The notes beneath the pieces were generated by a model, which saw nothing but the letters and a program-made list of their open reading frames with translations, ran no database searches and was not told where the DNA came from. A DNA stretch of 64,000 bases from Methylotenera oryzisoli (GTDB lineage Bacteria; Pseudomonadota; Gammaproteobacteria; Burkholderiales; Methylophilaceae): contig NZ_PQVH01000008.1 of NCBI RefSeq assembly GCF_004661485.1, positions 434,001 through 498,000 of the forward strand, read 5' to 3'. Numbering within the stretch: position 1 is the stretch's first letter; each line of letters starts with the position of its first letter. The translations under genes were made by a program, and so were the position numbers. Positions 8,073 to 54,082 of this stretch are shown here, one piece after another.

Positions 8073-9488
8073 TTACTGCGCGTCTTTTTTTGCGCGTTTT
8101 TCTTTGATAGAGGCTTCACGATGTGCCGTTTTACCACCAACATCAGTGCGCTTAGTACTCACACCCCATTCCAGTTCCTGGTCTTGCGCGTAACGCTTGC
8201 CAAGCTGCCATGCGATTTGTGCGCGAGCCAGTTCCACCCCTAAATAAAACGCATGGGAAGCATCATCGTCTACTTTTAAATGTGGATACAGCACAAAGGG
8301 GTCAAGGGCCTCATAGATGCCATCTCGATTGTATACATGCAAACCTTGCTCACTAACCTGAATACGAAAGCTTGGATCTTTAATTTGTGATGCTATTTCA
8401 TTAATTTCTTCAGCGCTGTAGGTAAATGGCCGTTTATCATGCAGGCCTAACAAGCCATTACTATAGCCACGTGGCAAACGCTCATCTCGTTTAGCTGCAA
8501 ACATAGTGCGTCTGGCGATATCCGCCTCGGCAATGGCATTCACTGCATGGGTACTGACCGAGGTAGCCAATACGGCGTTGATATTAAGCTCGCTAATCAT
8601 GCCAAACAACAGCGCATTGATGCCTGTAGTATCTGCATCGGTAAGCTCAGTTAGATTGCCAATCCCCATCATAATTTCGATATCAGGGTATTTTTTACGC
8701 AAGCGATGATAACGCACGATGGAGTCGGTCAACCCAAAATGGATGGGATCCAAAATTGCATCAGCCAAAAAAGGCTTACCTAACTTAATACAGCCTTCAA
8801 TCGCACGATATAGCGAAGGCAAGCTATGCGGTTTTGCCGGAATTAGTACGGGAGTAGAGGCCACCTCCTGTGCAATCCAAAGCGTTTTCTCAGTAAGGCT
8901 TAACAGATAGTCAGCGCCTGCATGTCCTGCAGCGAGCAAGTCATCCGTATTCAAAGAGTCCACACTCACACTTAACCCTTGCTGTTTAAGCGCTTGAATG
9001 CTTTCTGCCAAGTGTGGAAAAGGTACAGCAGGCAAACAACCAAGATCAATCACATTGGCGCCTTGTGCTTGATACTGCAGGGCTTTGTTCAGAATGCCTT
9101 CTACACTTAGATACGGCGCATCTACGATTTCTGCAAATATTTTAACTTGATATTGGCTTAAATCAGGCGCAACCCCCTGATGCCCGAAGTATTGCGGCAA
9201 ATCCTTTAAGTCTGCAGGACCACGCTCCACAGGCACGCCATATTTGGCTTCTAGCATGGTTAAATCACCTTGGCATAAACCGGGCACAATAACTTTATCT
9301 GCATCGCCTGTTTCTTTTACTCTGCGCGCAATTAGATCTGGCGTCATCAATGCCGCAACTGAAACCCCAATCTGCTCCACACGGTACTTAAAGGGCTGTG
9401 TTTTAGGGTTACTTTGCACTTCACTTAGTACTTTGTTCAAACTTTTTTCGGCAAGCTTACCCGTTAAAAAAAGTAGATTTTTTGTCAT
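8073..9488 (-). CDS. Dihydropteroate-synthase-like protein (H4MPT biosynthesis cluster)
   Basis: Protein of 471 residues. The N-terminal 130 residues form a domain specific to this family (PGLCQGDLTMLEAKYGVPV). The middle is a pterin-binding TIM barrel recognisable by GANVIDLGCLPAVPFPHL, VSVDSLNTDDLLAAGHAG and IMMGIGNLTELTDADT. The C-terminus is charged and lysine-rich. Archaeal relatives are annotated as dihydropteroate synthase-related and thought to act in methanopterin assembly, joining pterin and aminobenzoate parts. It is one base from the end of the upstream flavoprotein gene, so the two are probably translationally coupled. The precise reaction is inferred. Confidence 0.8.
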   Translation of the reverse strand: MTKNLLFLTGKLAEKSLNKVLSEVQSNPKTQPFKYRVEQIGVSVAALMTPDLIARRVKETGDADKVIVPGLCQGDLTMLEAKYGVPVERGPADLKDLPQYFGHQGVAPDLSQYQVKIFAEIVDAPYLSVEGILNKALQYQAQGANVIDLGCLPAVPFPHLAESIQALKQQGLSVSVDSLNTDDLLAAGHAGADYLLSLTEKTLWIAQEVASTPVLIPAKPHSLPSLYRAIEGCIKLGKPFLADAILDPIHFGLTDSIVRYHRLRKKYPDIEIMMGIGNLTELTDADTTGINALLFGMISELNINAVLATSVSTHAVNAIAEADIARRTMFAAKRDERLPRGYSNGLLGLHDKRPFTYSAEEINEIASQIKDPSFRIQVSEQGLHVYNRDGIYEALDPFVLYPHLKVDDDASHAFYLGVELARAQIAWQLGKRYAQDQELEWGVSTKRTDVGGKTAHREASIKEKRAKKDAQ

Positions 9489-9489
9489 A

Positions 9490-10047
9490 CTAGTCGGTAT
9501 TTTTTAGCAACTGCAAATGCTGCTGGATGCAGCTACTTAAGCTGTCCATATCTTCTACGACGCTGGTCATCTCAAATGACTTAAGTTTGGCAATATTTTC
9601 TAAGTCAATCTTACGCGGATAAACTTTAACCATATTGTCGCGAGGCGCTTCAGACTCCAGCTCTGGCGCGGTATCACATGCAAATACGATACTAGGCACG
9701 CGTGTTTTTCCAGCCTGTGCATATAAATTAGTCACCAGGCTGTCAGAGAAACCATAGGCCATTTTAGCAATAGTGTTTGAAGTTGCCGGAGCGATCACCA
9801 GACTGTGGTATTTACCTTTATAGAACATACCCACTGGTACACTGCTAGCTGTTTTATCTTGATAAACACGATGTCCCGCAGCATTTAGTGCTTGCTGAAA
9901 ACCGTACTGCTGAATGATTTCTGCGCCGGCGCTACTTAGAAAAATATCAACATTTTCTAATGTATTCAGAATCTCAATAGATTCACGTAAATAATGGCCA
10001 GAGCCTGTAATTGCCCATGCCAAACGTTGATTTTTTTTATCTATCAT
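9490..10047 (-). CDS. dmrB: Flavoprotein, AfpA/DmrB family (probable dihydromethanopterin reductase)
   Basis: FMN flavoprotein of the HFCD-like fold, 185 residues from the ATG at 10047. Visible are the N-terminal AITGSGHYLRES phosphate-binding loop, LSSAGAEII, the APATSNTIAKMAYGFSDSLV loop typical of the superfamily, and an NMVKVYPRKIDLEN segment. DmrB of Burkholderia xenovorans, which reduces dihydromethanopterin to H4MPT, belongs to this family, so the call fits the cluster. A GTG at 10077 would add ten residues (MCFLVQVWLK), but the ATG matches the family better. First gene of the mfn/dmr cluster. The 160 bases upstream, to purA, hold only short AT-rich inverted repeats (for example 10177-10198). 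Confidence 0.75.
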   Translation of the reverse strand: MIDKKNQRLAWAITGSGHYLRESIEILNTLENVDIFLSSAGAEIIQQYGFQQALNAAGHRVYQDKTASSVPVGMFYKGKYHSLVIAPATSNTIAKMAYGFSDSLVTNLYAQAGKTRVPSIVFACDTAPELESEAPRDNMVKVYPRKIDLENIAKLKSFEMTSVVEDMDSLSSCIQQHLQLLKNTD

Positions 10048-10207
10048 TTTCAACCAAACTTGTACTAAAAAACACACCTAAGCCACTAAACGCCTGGCCC
10101 AGCGCCACACCTGAAACACAAGGTTTAGCTCTAGGCATGACAGTATTGAATAGCGCATATGCTTGGCGCTAGCTACCTTTAATGCTTACGGATTAAAGCA
10201 ATGATGA

Positions 10208-48730: not shown

Positions 48731-50002
48731 ATGAAAAACAATTTAAATCCAACCCTCCCCGCCTCCATTACCTGCCCTGCCTGTGGCATGCTTTGTGATG
48801 ATTTGGTGCTAACAAGTACTACTCCCTTATCCATTCAAAATGCATGTGCTAAAAGCATTACTTTTTTTGAGCAATCGTTTCATTCAAACAGCTCAAACAC
48901 GGCGCCTAGCGTATCAGGTAAAACGACGGACCTAGAAACTGCCGTTAAAGCTGCTGCTGCCATTCTGGCGCAAAGTAAGGCACCACTGATTGCAGGTCTA
49001 GGCACTGAAGTACAAGGAATGCGCTCTATTATGCGCCTAGCCGCAGCTAGTAATGCAATGTTAGACCACATGCACAGCGAATCGTCCGTGCGTAACACAC
49101 TCACTATGCAAAATGGCGGCTGGCTCACCACCACCCTGTCTGAAGTTAAAAACCGTGCTGACCTAATTTTAGCCATCGGCACAGATATTGGCACTAGCCA
49201 CCCCCGCTTCTTCGAAAAGCTGGTTTGGGACTCTGCCAGCCTGTTTAACAAACCAAGCCCAGAGGTAGTCTACTTGGGCGTTTCTGCAGATAAAGCCAAA
49301 TCAGCCACTTCACCAGAAGGCAAGCTAGCCAGCGCAGTAGGCGATGATCCAGCTCAAATACCTGAAATTGTGAACGCACTTAACGCCTTGTTAATCAATA
49401 AGAAAATCAATGCAGAAACCGTGGGCGGCGTTGCGGTAGCAACATTACAAGCCTTAGTAGAAAAATTAAAAGCAGCCAAATATGCTGTCATTGTATGGTC
49501 TGCCAGCAGCTTTAAATTCAGCCACGCAGAACTTACTATCCAAAGCATCGTACAACTGGTGAATCAACTGAATGAAACCACACGTGCTGCCGGCTTGCCG
49601 CTCAATTCAGGAGACGGCGACTCTTCAGTCAACAACACCAGCACATGGTTAAGTGGCTATCCAACCAGAAACCGCTTTGTAAATGGTAAACCTGAATATG
49701 ATAACTATCACTTCAGCACACAAAAACAATTGCAAAATAGCGATGCCTTGCTCTGGGTAAGCACATTCAACCCAACCAGTGCACCGCAAACCGCACTACC
49801 TACCATTGTGATTGGACGCCCAGACATCAAACTAGATCGCACACCAGATGTATTTATTCCGGTCGGCATCCCGGGTGTTGACCATGCAGGCTCAATGTTC
49901 CGCATGGACAGTTCTATCACGCTACCACTAAAAAAACTACGCAATAACGAATTACCCAACTTGAGCGAGGTAATAAATAGAATTGAGGCAGAATTAGCAT
50001 GA
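48731..50002 (+). CDS. fhcB: Formyltransferase/hydrolase complex subunit FhcB
   Basis: Subunit of the Fhc complex, which moves and hydrolyses the formyl group from formyl-H4MPT via methanofuran to formate; 423 residues. It is related to the metal-dehydrogenase subunit of archaeal formylmethanofuran dehydrogenase. In bacteria the Fhc complex does not act as a dehydrogenase. The N-terminus keeps CPACGMLCDD (C15, C18, C22), as in archaeal Fe-S ligands, with a possible fourth at C39. In the region where archaeal enzymes carry the tungsten/molybdenum-binding Cys (near SESSVRNTL) none is seen. No clear ribosome site precedes the ATG. First gene of the fhc operon. Confidence 0.93.
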   Translation: MKNNLNPTLPASITCPACGMLCDDLVLTSTTPLSIQNACAKSITFFEQSFHSNSSNTAPSVSGKTTDLETAVKAAAAILAQSKAPLIAGLGTEVQGMRSIMRLAAASNAMLDHMHSESSVRNTLTMQNGGWLTTTLSEVKNRADLILAIGTDIGTSHPRFFEKLVWDSASLFNKPSPEVVYLGVSADKAKSATSPEGKLASAVGDDPAQIPEIVNALNALLINKKINAETVGGVAVATLQALVEKLKAAKYAVIVWSASSFKFSHAELTIQSIVQLVNQLNETTRAAGLPLNSGDGDSSVNNTSTWLSGYPTRNRFVNGKPEYDNYHFSTQKQLQNSDALLWVSTFNPTSAPQTALPTIVIGRPDIKLDRTPDVFIPVGIPGVDHAGSMFRMDSSITLPLKKLRNNELPNLSEVINRIEAELA

Positions 50003-51675
50003 TCACTTTACTCAAGAACGGCAAACTGTACGACCCTGCGCACAATAAAAATGGCGTAGTAGAAGATATTTACATTCATCAAGGCCGTATCGTACCGAAA
50101 CCGCTAGATAACGCAAAAATCAGCCAAACCTATGATTTAAGCGGCAAAGTAGTGATGGCCGGCGCCATTGATATGCACAGCCACATCGGTGGCGGCAAAG
50201 TCAATATCGCACGCATGATGTTGCCAGAATACCAACAAAAACAGATGCAGGAAATTAAAAACCTGAGTGAGCCTGAAGCACATATCTGTACGCCATATTG
50301 TAGCCACCATGCCACACCAACGGCCACTGACACCGGCTTTAGATACATTGAAATGGGCTATACCGCTGCGTTTGAGCCTGCCATTTCACCTATCAACGCG
50401 CGTCAAGCCCACTTAGAAATGGGTGACACCCCGATGATTGATAAGGGTGGCTATGCAATGCTAGGTAATGACGATTACTTTTTGCGCATGCTAACCGCAA
50501 AAAAAGATCAAAAAGCCATTAACGACTACGTTGCATGGATTCTGCATGCCACGCAAACCATCGGTATTAAAGTCGTGAATCCGGGTGGCATTAGCGCATT
50601 TAAATTCAATCAACGCCGACTGAATTTAGACGAAAACCATCAGCATTATCAAGTAAGCCCGCGTGAAGTACTGCAAAGCCTAAGCCGTGCCGTGCACGAA
50701 CTTGGCATTGCTAAACCACTGCATGTGCACTGTAACAATTTGGGTGCAGCCGGTAACTTTGAAACCACGCTCAATACCATGACTGCAAGCAATGGCCTGC
50801 CTATGCACTTAACGCATATTCAGTTCCACAGCTATGGTACAGAAGGTGATAAGAAGTTCTCATCAGCAGCCGCGCAAATTGCAGAAGCCATTAATAAAAA
50901 CAAAAACATCACCGCCGATGTAGGCCAAATTTTATTTAATCAAACCGTCACGGCATCTGGTGACTCAATGATGCAACACTTGAATGCTAAGCATGCAAAT
51001 CCTAAAAAATCAGTGATTATGGATATTGAATGCGATGCCGGCTGCGGTGTATTGCCGTTTAAGTACCGTGATCAAAACTATGTGAACGCATTGCAATGGG
51101 CCATCGGCTTAGAGATTTTTCTATCAGTGGAAGACCCATGGCGTATTTTCTTAACCACAGACCATCCAAATGGCGCACCGTTTACCAGCTACCCGCATTT
51201 GATTCGCTTATTGATGGATAAATCTTTCAGAAATGAAGCATTTGCCAAGCTCAATCTGGATGCGCAATCCATGAGCAACCTCACCAGCTTAGACCGCGAA
51301 TACAGCCTGTATGACATTGCCATCATGACGCGTGCCGGCGCAAGCAAACTGATTGGTATGAACGACCGTGGACATTTGGGTGTAGGCGCTAACGCAGACA
51401 TCACCGTGTATACCGACCAAGAAAACCGCGAGGCCATGTTTGCCAAGCCTGATTATGTATTTAAAAACGGGGAATTAGTGGTTAAAGACGGCGCCGTGGT
51501 TAAAGTGGTCTGGGGTGCTACTCATACTGCCAAACCTGCTTTTGATATTGGTGTAGAAAAAGAGCTGAAAGAATACTTTGATCGCTACCAAACCATAGGT
51601 TTAGATAACTTCAAGATTAGCGATGCCGAGATCTTTGATGACGGCAGAGGCAGTGTTGTCGTCAATAAAAACTAA
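49999..51675 (+). CDS. fhcA: Formyltransferase/hydrolase complex subunit FhcA
   Basis: Amidohydrolase-family subunit that hydrolyses formylmethanofuran to formate and methanofuran; 558 residues. It starts 4 bases inside the fhcB stop (ATGA). Metal-site motifs: GAIDMHSHIGGGKVN near the start, the Lys-containing GGISAFKFNQRR (candidate carboxylysine), HVHCNNLGAAGNFE, LTHIQFHSYG, and the Asp in TTDHPNGAPFTSYPHLI. The C-terminal composite domain includes GVGANADITVYTDQ. Strong similarity to FwdA/FhcA families. Followed after 26 bases by the PNPOx-like gene. Confidence 0.96.
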   Translation: MITLLKNGKLYDPAHNKNGVVEDIYIHQGRIVPKPLDNAKISQTYDLSGKVVMAGAIDMHSHIGGGKVNIARMMLPEYQQKQMQEIKNLSEPEAHICTPYCSHHATPTATDTGFRYIEMGYTAAFEPAISPINARQAHLEMGDTPMIDKGGYAMLGNDDYFLRMLTAKKDQKAINDYVAWILHATQTIGIKVVNPGGISAFKFNQRRLNLDENHQHYQVSPREVLQSLSRAVHELGIAKPLHVHCNNLGAAGNFETTLNTMTASNGLPMHLTHIQFHSYGTEGDKKFSSAAAQIAEAINKNKNITADVGQILFNQTVTASGDSMMQHLNAKHANPKKSVIMDIECDAGCGVLPFKYRDQNYVNALQWAIGLEIFLSVEDPWRIFLTTDHPNGAPFTSYPHLIRLLMDKSFRNEAFAKLNLDAQSMSNLTSLDREYSLYDIAIMTRAGASKLIGMNDRGHLGVGANADITVYTDQENREAMFAKPDYVFKNGELVVKDGAVVKVVWGATHTAKPAFDIGVEKELKEYFDRYQTIGLDNFKISDAEIFDDGRGSVVVNKN

Positions 51676-51701
51676 CAGTCTCTCGACTGAAAGGAAACGA
51701 T

Positions 51702-52361
51702 ATGAGTAGATTATATGGCGAACAACACCGTCAACTACAGGATGAGTTTGCCACACGTAAAATGGCAGACCGCGTTGAAGAGTTAGCTTGCAAAACAGAG
51801 TTTGATGATGAATCAAAAGGATTTATCGAATACATGGATATGTTTTTTCTATCCACAGTAGATCATCAAGGCCGCCCTACCGTGTCGTACAAAGGCGGCG
51901 ACGCTGGCTTTGTCAAAGTAATTGATAGCAAAACCTTAGCCTTTCCTAGCTACGATGGTAATGGCATGTTCTTTTCTATGGGCAACATCACCACACAGCC
52001 GCAAGTTGGCTTGCTGTTTATCTCTTTTGAAACGCCGCATCGTATCCGTGTGCAAGGCACTGCTACCATCTCACGTGATGACCCACTGATGAGCGAATAC
52101 AAAGAAGCTGACTTTATTGTTAGGGTGACCTTATCCGAGCTATGGCAAAATTGTCCGCGCTACATTCACCAGCGCACCAAGGTACGTGATTCACGTTATG
52201 TACCGCGTGAACATTGCGAGACCCCGCTTGCCGAGTGGAAGCGTCTGGATTTAGTGCAAGATGTGCTGCCGGAAACAGACCTCAATAAAGTAAAAGAACT
52301 AGGTACCATTCAAATTGAAGAATGGATTGATAAAATTAAAACTGCTGACCCAACGGCCTAA
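51702..52361 (+). CDS. Pyridoxamine-5-phosphate-oxidase-fold flavin protein inserted in the fhc operon
   Basis: A 219-residue protein of the PNPOx/FMN-binding split-barrel superfamily: FFLSTVDHQGRPTVSYKGGD, SYDGNGMFFSMGNITTQPQV, LFISFETPHRIRVQGTATIS, then a long C-terminal helix region with CPRYIHQRTKV. The GDAGFV and phosphate-contacting NGMFFSMGN turns suggest flavin or F420-like cofactor binding. It has its own ribosome site (AAAGGAAA) and ends exactly where fhcD begins (TAAATG), so it is translationally coupled to fhc. Substrate and role are unknown; context hints at one-carbon or methanopterin redox chemistry. Confidence 0.85.
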   Translation: MSRLYGEQHRQLQDEFATRKMADRVEELACKTEFDDESKGFIEYMDMFFLSTVDHQGRPTVSYKGGDAGFVKVIDSKTLAFPSYDGNGMFFSMGNITTQPQVGLLFISFETPHRIRVQGTATISRDDPLMSEYKEADFIVRVTLSELWQNCPRYIHQRTKVRDSRYVPREHCETPLAEWKRLDLVQDVLPETDLNKVKELGTIQIEEWIDKIKTADPTA

Positions 52362-53276
52362 ATGATGATGTTGCTAAATAATATACAAATTGACGATACC
52401 TTTGCCGAAGCATTTAATATGCGCGGCACTCGCGTGATTATTACCGCGCAAAACCTAAAATGGGCATACCATGCCGCAAACGCGATGACGGGCTTTGCAA
52501 CCTCAGTCATTGGCTGTGGCGTTGAAGCTGGTATTGAACGCGAATTATCAACAGAAGAAACACCAGACGGCAGGCCTGGCGTCAGTATCTTAATGTTTGC
52601 CATGGGCAGCAAAGTGCTGATGCAACAATTAGAAACCCGCATGGGGCAATGTATCCTGACCTGTCCAACTGCTGCGGCTTTTTCCGGCATTGATGGCGAA
52701 GATAAAATCAGCCTAGGTAAACACCTGCGCTACTTTGGCGACGGTTTCCAAACCTCTAAACTGATTGATGGCAAACGCTACTGGCGTATTCCGGTGATGG
52801 ACGGCGAGTTTATTACCGAAGAAACAACGGGTATGGTACGTGCAATCGGCGGCGGTAACTTTCTGATTTTAGCGACATCACAGCCTGCAGCTTTAGCCGC
52901 AGCTGAGGTTGCCATTGAAGCCATGAAAAAAGTGCCTAACGTGATTATGCCGTTTCCAGGTGGCGTAGTGCGCTCTGGCTCTAAGGTTGGCAGTAAGTAT
53001 AAAACTATGTTTGCCTCCACCAATGACGCATTCTGCCCTACACTTAAAGGTGCTACCAATACTGAGCTTTCACCTGAGATTGAAAGCGTGATGGAAATTG
53101 TGATCGATGGCTTAACCTTCGAAGACATCGCACTTTCAATGAAAGTGGGTATCGAAGCTATTTGCAACCTAGGTGCTGATAGTGGCGTTAAGCGCATTTC
53201 GGCGGGTAACTATGGCGGCAAACTTGGCCCTCATCTTTTCAAACTACATGATATTTTAAACGGCAGCAACTCATGA
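52362..53276 (+). CDS. fhcD: Formylmethanofuran-tetrahydromethanopterin formyltransferase FhcD (Ftr)
   Basis: Transfers formyl from formyl-H4MPT to methanofuran in the oxidative direction; 304 residues. The ATG directly abuts the upstream TAA. Two similar lobes are seen, with NIQIDDTFAEAFNMRGTRVI, IGCGVEAGIERELS, TPDGRPGVSILMFAMGSKVL, MGQCILTCPTAA and the C-lobe FPGGVVRSGSKVGSKYKTM and LKGATNTELSPEIESVMEIV. Acidic residues of the family catalytic site are kept. Supports H4MPT-linked formaldehyde oxidation in the cell. Confidence 0.97.
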   Translation: MMMLLNNIQIDDTFAEAFNMRGTRVIITAQNLKWAYHAANAMTGFATSVIGCGVEAGIERELSTEETPDGRPGVSILMFAMGSKVLMQQLETRMGQCILTCPTAAAFSGIDGEDKISLGKHLRYFGDGFQTSKLIDGKRYWRIPVMDGEFITEETTGMVRAIGGGNFLILATSQPAALAAAEVAIEAMKKVPNVIMPFPGGVVRSGSKVGSKYKTMFASTNDAFCPTLKGATNTELSPEIESVMEIVIDGLTFEDIALSMKVGIEAICNLGADSGVKRISAGNYGGKLGPHLFKLHDILNGSNS

Positions 53277-54082
53277 ACGCGCTTACATTCACACTAAAGA
53301 ATACACTCCAATTCTCGGTAAATTGCGGTGCATTAACTCCAGATAATTTAGCCAACAAATCTGCTGCCGATATTGCCAAGATTAAAGTCACTTACGGTAA
53401 CAGTACAGTTTTGGCTGGCGATTTATTTGAAATTAGCGGCAATGATGCTGCACACATTGTGTTTAAAAATGCATCGGACAAGATGGACTATATTGGCGCA
53501 CATATGTCTACTGGCAAAATCACCGTTGAAGGTAACGCTGGTGCCTATTTAGGCTTTACCATGAAGAATGGTGAAATCCACTGCTTAGGTAACGCGGCAA
53601 GCTATGCCGCATGCAATATGGTAAACGGCTTATTAAAAATTGATGCAAACGTAGGTGATTTTTTAGGCGCAGGCTCAGAAGGCTTACGCAAAGGCATGCG
53701 CGGCGGCACTGTCATTATCAAAGGCAATGCCGGCGACCGTGTTGGCGACCAGATGCGTAGAGGCTTGATTTTGATTGAAGGTAATGTTGGCGACTATTGC
53801 GGTAGCCGTATGATTGCAGGCACGATTGGCGTATTGGGCAGTGTTGGTGTCTACACCGCATTTAATATGCACCGTGGTACGTTATTGCTGAAAAATGTAC
53901 CAACCCTGCATGCAACCGTGCAATATTGTGGCACGCACACCTTGCCATACCTGAGCTTATTATTTAAATCGTTTAAAAAATACAATACACAATTTAGCCA
54001 ATTGAGCTCACAGCGCGTACAGCGCTTTGTAGGTGATGCTGCGTATAAAGGCAATGGTGAAGTGCTGATTCTCAATGCTTAA
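53273..54082 (+). CDS. fhcC: Formyltransferase/hydrolase complex subunit FhcC
   Basis: Beta-helix scaffold subunit of the Fhc complex, related to FwdC and the glutamate-synthase C-terminal domain; 269 residues. It starts inside the fhcD stop (ATGA). Repeating glycine-rich coils of the right-handed helix are clear: GKITVEGNAGAYLGFTMKNG, LKIDANVGDFLGAGSEG, GTVIIKGNAGDRVGDQMRRG, LIEGNVGDYCGSRMIAG. The complex supplies the platform for the FhcD transferase and FhcA hydrolase. Last gene of the operon; a hairpin follows at 54104. Confidence 0.96.
   Translation: MNALTFTLKNTLQFSVNCGALTPDNLANKSAADIAKIKVTYGNSTVLAGDLFEISGNDAAHIVFKNASDKMDYIGAHMSTGKITVEGNAGAYLGFTMKNGEIHCLGNAASYAACNMVNGLLKIDANVGDFLGAGSEGLRKGMRGGTVIIKGNAGDRVGDQMRRGLILIEGNVGDYCGSRMIAGTIGVLGSVGVYTAFNMHRGTLLLKNVPTLHATVQYCGTHTLPYLSLLFKSFKKYNTQFSQLSSQRVQRFVGDAAYKGNGEVLILNA

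Follow-up and report, generated by a model that had tools for sequence, protein, structure and literature searches.

In the window, the 64,000-nucleotide stretch of Methylotenera oryzisoli DNA analysed here, a gene for a 219-residue protein of the PNPOx (split-barrel) fold lies inside the fhc operon, which gives the plus-strand order fhcB-fhcA-(219 aa)-fhcD-fhcC (Table 1). The reading that we favour, and to which we give about an even chance, is that the protein has an accessory part in C1 metabolism and probably binds FMN, that its gene was captured by the fhc operon, and that the product is not a required Fhc subunit, since the gene is absent from many fhc operons and occurs in genomes without fhcD. 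Fhc is described as fhcABCD in the available text of PMC8141765, and no paper naming a PNPOx-fold gene in an fhc operon was found in the accessible portions of the literature on the operon, the gene, the families and their expression. In the excerpts available from a transcriptome study, the H4MPT pathway includes five consecutive tags in M. mobilis (mmol_0858-0862) and in M. versatilis (m301_0909-0913) (PMC3728764), and these five-tag ranges may already include the PNPOx-fold gene. What is new is thus a variant of the known fhc operon with an extra gene, while the fold of its product is known.

Table 1. The fhc operon of the window and the gene embedded in it
Feature	Position	Strand	Basis
fhcB, formyltransferase/hydrolase subunit B	48731..50002	+	TIGR03129 292.1 bits, below cut-off 327.8; operon position
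fhcA	49999..51675	+	TIGR03121 727.2 bits, above cut-off
AAAGGAAA, likely ribosome-binding site of PNPOx-fold gene	51690..51697	+	Sequence
PNPOx-fold (split-barrel) flavin-type protein gene, 219 aa	51702..52361	+	ORF with ATG start; Pfam and NCBIfam profiles; AlphaFold2 model pLDDT 90.3
fhcD (formyltransferase)	52362..53276	+	TIGR03119 459 bits, above cut-off; start uncertain among three ATGs, 52362-52370
fhcC	53273..54082	+	TIGR03122 261.2 bits, above cut-off

The original prediction placed the gene between fhcA and fhcD with a ribosome-binding site of its own, and both points were borne out by the open reading frame, by the NCBIfam profiles of the flanking genes, and by the presence of AAAGGAAA inside the 26-bp gap that follows the fhcA stop codon (51673-51675). 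The zero-base coupling to fhcD, also predicted, stood only in part: the stop codon of the gene does abut ATGATGATG of fhcD (TAAATG, 52359-52364), but fhcD begins with three consecutive ATGs, the first of which reads ATA in the close relatives L003 and L006, so that both the start of fhcD and the coupling are unsure and the real start may lie 3 or 6 bases further on. When the distance is taken to the codon aligned with the first fhcD codon of the window, 10 of the 64 embedded loci, some genomes being counted twice, show no gap (0 bp) and 61 stay between -4 and 39 bp; the exceptions are L029 and L085 with 454 bp each (probably one genome) and L047 with 249 bp. On the fhcA side, L045 (166 bp) and L052 (496 bp, with fhcA split into two matches) are outliers. 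The genome of the window holds no close second copy, and its only other match, L002 at E 0.03, was rejected as one because the frame resembles a minor pilin by eye. Recent foreign DNA was likewise dismissed, the GC content of the segment around the gene (45.2%) lying within the 42.7-48.3% found along the operon, with no break. The search for internal promoters (10, compared with 11.4 in shuffled sequence) carried no information, nor did that for terminators (8, compared with 7.4), and a PHROGs search gave no match.

Elsewhere in the window, on the minus strand (8073-10077), an AfpA/DmrB-like flavoprotein gene (9490-10077) lies beside a DUF6513 dihydropteroate-synthase-like gene (8073-9488). 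The two are probably tetrahydromethanopterin genes, a tentative call with scores below the cut-offs of the archaeal-type NCBIfam models. A dihydromethanopterin reductase role for the PNPOx-fold protein was set aside, the need for one not being obvious in a window that already carries this tentatively assigned flavoprotein.

We were interested in how far the embedded placement extends, and 120 genomes, sampled from the larger family, were searched for the PNPOx-fold protein and for fhcD; the order and class samples were likewise drawn from larger groups. A relative at E<=1e-8 was found in 74 of the 120 and fhcD in 87, where any match at E<=0.001 was counted for fhcD, a few of them partial. Adjacency, judged from coordinates, was found in 20 of the 87 fhcD-bearing genomes, 14 of them among the 15 that represent the window's genus and six outside it, and the arrangement is therefore not a peculiarity of the single genome, an outcome that had been named beforehand as fatal to the idea. 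For the 67 fhcD genomes without adjacency, 62 loci were read (G039, G064, G073, G082 and G100 were left unread), and none of them has the gene between fhcA and fhcD; the fhcA-fhcD gap in tblastn is 3-134 bp in 61 of these loci, while the remaining one, in which a DUF1513 gene intervenes, has 1124 bp. In the window's genus, G117 carries fhc but yields no relative at E<=1e-8, and at this threshold 28 of the 93 good family genomes are without one. The stable placement that had been supposed thus holds in the Methylotenera-type clade only.

Among 80 named loci, the best 80 of 109 and a set biased to near relatives, the gene adjoins fhcD in 45 but not in the other 35, and the closest named records in this set are Methylotenera with protein identities of 97% and 96%. 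Methylobacillus, Methylophilus and Methyloversatilis carry stand-alone relatives with 62-73% identity. A table in the available part of PMC5023235 gives the four fhc genes of Methyloversatilis universalis FAM5 as four consecutive locus tags. Many embedded operons have rlmN and ndk upstream and trhO downstream, and relatives without the gene show the same setting. An Fhc subunit should be present wherever fhc operons occur, which is not what we found: by its distribution (0 of 62 other loci, 20 of 87 fhcD-bearing family genomes without the subfamily at E<=1e-40, and occurrence without fhcD) a fifth, required Fhc subunit is ruled out as the main reading. A part in formyl transfer, one of the roles first proposed, is unlikely as a required one because of the same 62 loci, because G117 lacks the gene, and because G013 and G085 carry a relative without an fhcD match.

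A gene tree of 117 of 147 proteins, identical ones being kept once, placed the 51 distinct embedded sequences in one clade with support 100/99. Outside this clade fall the proteins of Methylobacillus and Pseudomethylobacillus (both represented by rows L021 and L022), Methylophilus, Methyloversatilis, Methylophaga and Binatia, as well as those of the small-genome family members G013 and G085. As a host tree we used a quick FhcA+FhcD tree, with 117 of 121 rows left after duplicate removal, on which presence and absence of the gene require at least 10 changes, 7 of them forced by starred branches. L008, L039 and L051 are placed differently in the two trees, as is L049 in the host tree (its protein is the same as that of L008); these discordant rows suggest local transfer, and the counts of gain and loss are therefore approximate. 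The single embedded clade together with the changes on the host tree fits one capture followed by repeated loss: the fhc operon seems to have captured the gene once, if the direction of gain and loss is read correctly, and it was probably lost repeatedly afterwards, with some local transfer besides. L110 carries the title Klebsiella pneumoniae MAG, but in the same data its gene falls among those of unnamed gammaproteobacterial MAGs, and the title is probably wrong.

The fhcA-fhcD junction accepts inserts of other kinds too, since a DUF1513 gene of about 350 aa lies between fhcA and fhcD in L171 (G052, another genus of the family) and in L177 (G106) the PNPOx-fold gene and fhcD are separated by an extra 128-aa frame for which Pfam gives nothing at E<=0.001. 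These inserts, the repeated absence on the host tree, and the neighbours of stand-alone copies, which vary by lineage, would all suit a hitchhiker, that is, a general housekeeping or stress flavoprotein that came by chance to an insertion-tolerant site and whose place informs on expression only. We consider this somewhat unlikely, as one place has been kept across the clade, with the short fhcD-side gaps in 61 of 64 loci, and as the gene is under purifying selection and co-occurs with fhcD and PQQ dehydrogenases.

The selection was estimated from pairs of the window with L032, L033, L034 and L006; in four further pairs dS was saturated in the PNPOx-fold gene. The dN/dS ratio of the gene is 0.011-0.032 over the four pairs, indicating strong purifying selection, compared with 0.010-0.015 for fhcA and 0.008-0.011 for fhcD in the same pairs, 0.041-0.074 for fhcC and 0.066-0.076 for fhcB (three pairs); it is thus near fhcA and fhcD and below fhcB and fhcC. 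When the 51 embedded sequences were compared with 28 near stand-alone ones, no position was fixed at >=90% to different residues in the two groups. Nevertheless, R162 is found in all 51 embedded sequences and in none of the 28 stand-alone ones, F90 in 51 and 6, and R169 in 50 and 6, respectively, while R157 is present in 27 of 28 stand-alone and 0 of 51 embedded sequences, all 51 of which have K or Q there. These residues may stem from shared descent or from adaptation to the operon setting, and they may count against the view that the protein is not a partner of Fhc. Such a partner, confined to the Methylotenera clade, would bind the complex and act on methylofuran/H4MPT intermediates or shield the complex from oxygen, in agreement with the position, the short gaps, the purifying selection, the co-occurrence with fhcD, and the clade-specific R162, F90 and R169 with the loss of R157. 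Set against the absence of the gene from the fhcA-fhcD junction in all 62 other fhc loci that were read, its absence within the clade too (for example in G117), and its presence without fhcD, a fifth partner appears quite improbable to us.

The subfamily, at E<=1e-40, was found without an fhcD match in five family genomes, G012, G013, G045, G076 and G085. Completeness is no more than 76-78% in G012 and G045, and the copies in G012 and G076 reach just 56% and 49% identity. G013 gives the plainest case, being a single contig, 99% complete, with a copy 67% identical (67-68% for G013 and G085) to the window protein. According to the accessible parts of PMC6794327 and PMC4109929, Ca. Methylopumilus and OM43 are without the H4MPT pathway, and G013 would appear to be of this kind. 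The PNPOx-fold protein does not depend on Fhc.

Co-occurrence was tested with a match at E<=1e-40 taken as gene-positive and with kinship ignored throughout. In the family, fhcD is present in 67/72 gene-positive and 20/48 gene-negative genomes (p 7e-10); the figures are 14/32 and 14/218 in the order (p 2e-7), 9/26 and 14/217 in the order minus the window's own family (p 1e-4), and 11/14 and 28/260 in the class (p 3e-8). Conversely, the subfamily is missing from 20/87 fhcD genomes of the family, 14/28 of the order and 28/39 of the class, and any C1 role must be dispensable because of those 20 family genomes. In the order and class samples, 21 gene-positive genomes are fhcD-negative; a PQQ methanol/ethanol-type dehydrogenase (E<=1e-60) was detected in 13 of them and in 1 of 39 controls that have neither gene and were not matched by family, kinship again being ignored; 8 of the 13 have a segment >=50% identical to the PQQ dehydrogenase of the window's own genome. 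The fhcD counts mildly favour a redox or protective role near C1 metabolism, and this portion of the original proposal survives, whereas its form as a required part of Fhc is unlikely.

Among the neighbours of stand-alone copies, which differ by lineage, neither a common gene nor a C1 gene was recognised, most of them having been named without a family-library search. Distant members of 46% identity in L203, L209 and L210 follow a carbon-nitrogen hydrolase gene (annotated in L209 and L210, by eye in L203), a common setting of another kind. In L207, Methylosinus sp. C49, the domain is part of a single gene, which bears the annotation SRPBCC domain-containing and follows ArsR and MFS genes on a plasmid. 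L184 and L185 have a distant paralogue followed by a gene that resembles RidA by eye.

Records with methylotroph names from Beta-/Gammaproteobacteria and Alphaproteobacteria contain the subfamily, as does Candidatus Binatota. It could be an uncharacterised C1 flavoenzyme whose substrate, an intermediate or a damage product, is shared by methanol and formaldehyde oxidation, with the fhc capture as the clue, an idea that we hold tentatively and regard as unlikely.

The predicted PNPOx/split-barrel fold was upheld by the Pfam domain PNPOx_N (PF01243), whose 55.6 bits exceed the gathering score of 28.1 and place the protein in the superfamily, by the AlphaFold2 model (19 sequences; pLDDT 90.3, pTM 0.85) and by the structural matches of that model. 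The predicted split-barrel core spans residues ~31-155, with N-terminal helices and a C-terminal extension besides, and the protein is probably a homodimer. Across 117 sequences, 41 positions are >=97% conserved, including K64, G65, G66, N87, G88 and M89 as well as R114, R116, N150, C151, R153 and Y154; a redox role of C151 would be guesswork. Since the split-barrel fold is common to binders of flavin, F420 and heme, the cofactor can only be inferred; we take the protein to be probably FMN-binding. F420, which had been put forward as a candidate cofactor, is unlikely: the F420-family profiles TIGR03667 (14.5 of 125.3 bits) and TIGR03618 (14.5 of 79.05) score far below their cut-offs, and in the 100%-complete genome of the window the best match to cofH, the sole F420 gene searched, reaches 19.8 bits against a cut-off of 374.1.

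Canonical pdxH (TIGR00558) has no match at E<=0.001 in this 100%-complete genome; as a control, the model matched 5 of 14 genomes, E. coli among them, and scored above the cut-off in three. A gap in PLP synthesis is therefore possible in the window's genome. This invites the thought that the 219-aa protein replaces PdxH and oxidises pyridoxine 5'-phosphate to PLP. Consistent with such a substitution, the sole other match to the protein in this genome is the weak, minor-pilin-like frame mentioned above, and the available text of PMC9997740 describes nearly 1000 genomes that have PdxA and PdxJ but no PdxH, and refers to a candidate of the PF01243 type in Campylobacter. The same text states, however, that the only tested members of the candidate family, which are fungal, were without PdxH activity, and PMC6794327, in its accessible part, credits all Methylophilaceae with complete vitamin pathways except B12. 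By sequence the protein falls outside PdxH as well: it scores 13.6 of 129 bits with NF004231, PF01243 is the only PNPOx domain that Pfam finds, and a single short stretch is alignable to E. coli PdxH (23/100 residues identical). It lacks the RLHDR motif that E. coli PdxH has near its end and that is important there. Together with the 28 of 93 good family genomes without a relative, this leaves a PdxH stand-in very doubtful, while the missing pdxH match offers a second testable idea on an open gap in vitamin B6 synthesis.

To return to the accessory protein of C1 metabolism that we favour, the subfamily occurs as a stand-alone gene in the other lineages examined and is enriched in genomes with fhcD or PQQ alcohol dehydrogenases. 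In the ancestor of the Methylotenera-type clade the gene would have been captured once between fhcA and fhcD, and it is presumably co-transcribed and co-translated with the formyltransferase/hydrolase complex. The protein may perform a flavin-dependent redox or protective task on a small molecule from C1 oxidation, and the capture may have matched its expression to that of Fhc. Should the flavoprotein serve C1 oxidation, an enzyme or protective factor that has gone unrecognised would work beside the H4MPT pathway in methylotrophs, with the Methylotenera operon as a simple place for testing it; if it is a hitchhiker, the case is a warning against inferring function from one operon.

Comparison with known systems points in several directions. 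The best named family is TIGR04025 (MSMEG_1061/DR2398, FMN-dependent PPOX-type flavoprotein), in which residues 31-156 match 19-148 of the 197 profile positions; with 87.4 bits the protein lies far below the curated cut-off of 170 and is not a member. The COG3576 flavin-nucleotide-binding protein 2htd of Lactobacillus (Z 15.3, rmsd 2.4, 117 aligned; Foldseek E 1.4e-9) and the FMN-binding protein of Desulfovibrio vulgaris (Z 14.7, rmsd 2.0, 113 aligned) have the same split-barrel core, and K64 of the window protein aligns to a lysine of 2htd. Their chains of ~122-140 residues, however, lack the N- and C-terminal extensions and are 15-22% identical to the window protein. The highest Z belongs to HupZ (15.9, rmsd 2.0, 112 aligned), one of the HupZ/HutZ heme-binding split barrels, and that the top fold match is a heme protein counts against our preferred reading; the identity is 18-19%, and the NCBIfam heme-family models list no match to the window protein at E<=0.1. 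With PdxH the protein has the superfamily and the PF01243 domain in common, but not a second PNPOx domain listed by Pfam. As for FhcABCD, the gene sits in the operon of this complex, and yet its product is none of the four subunits.
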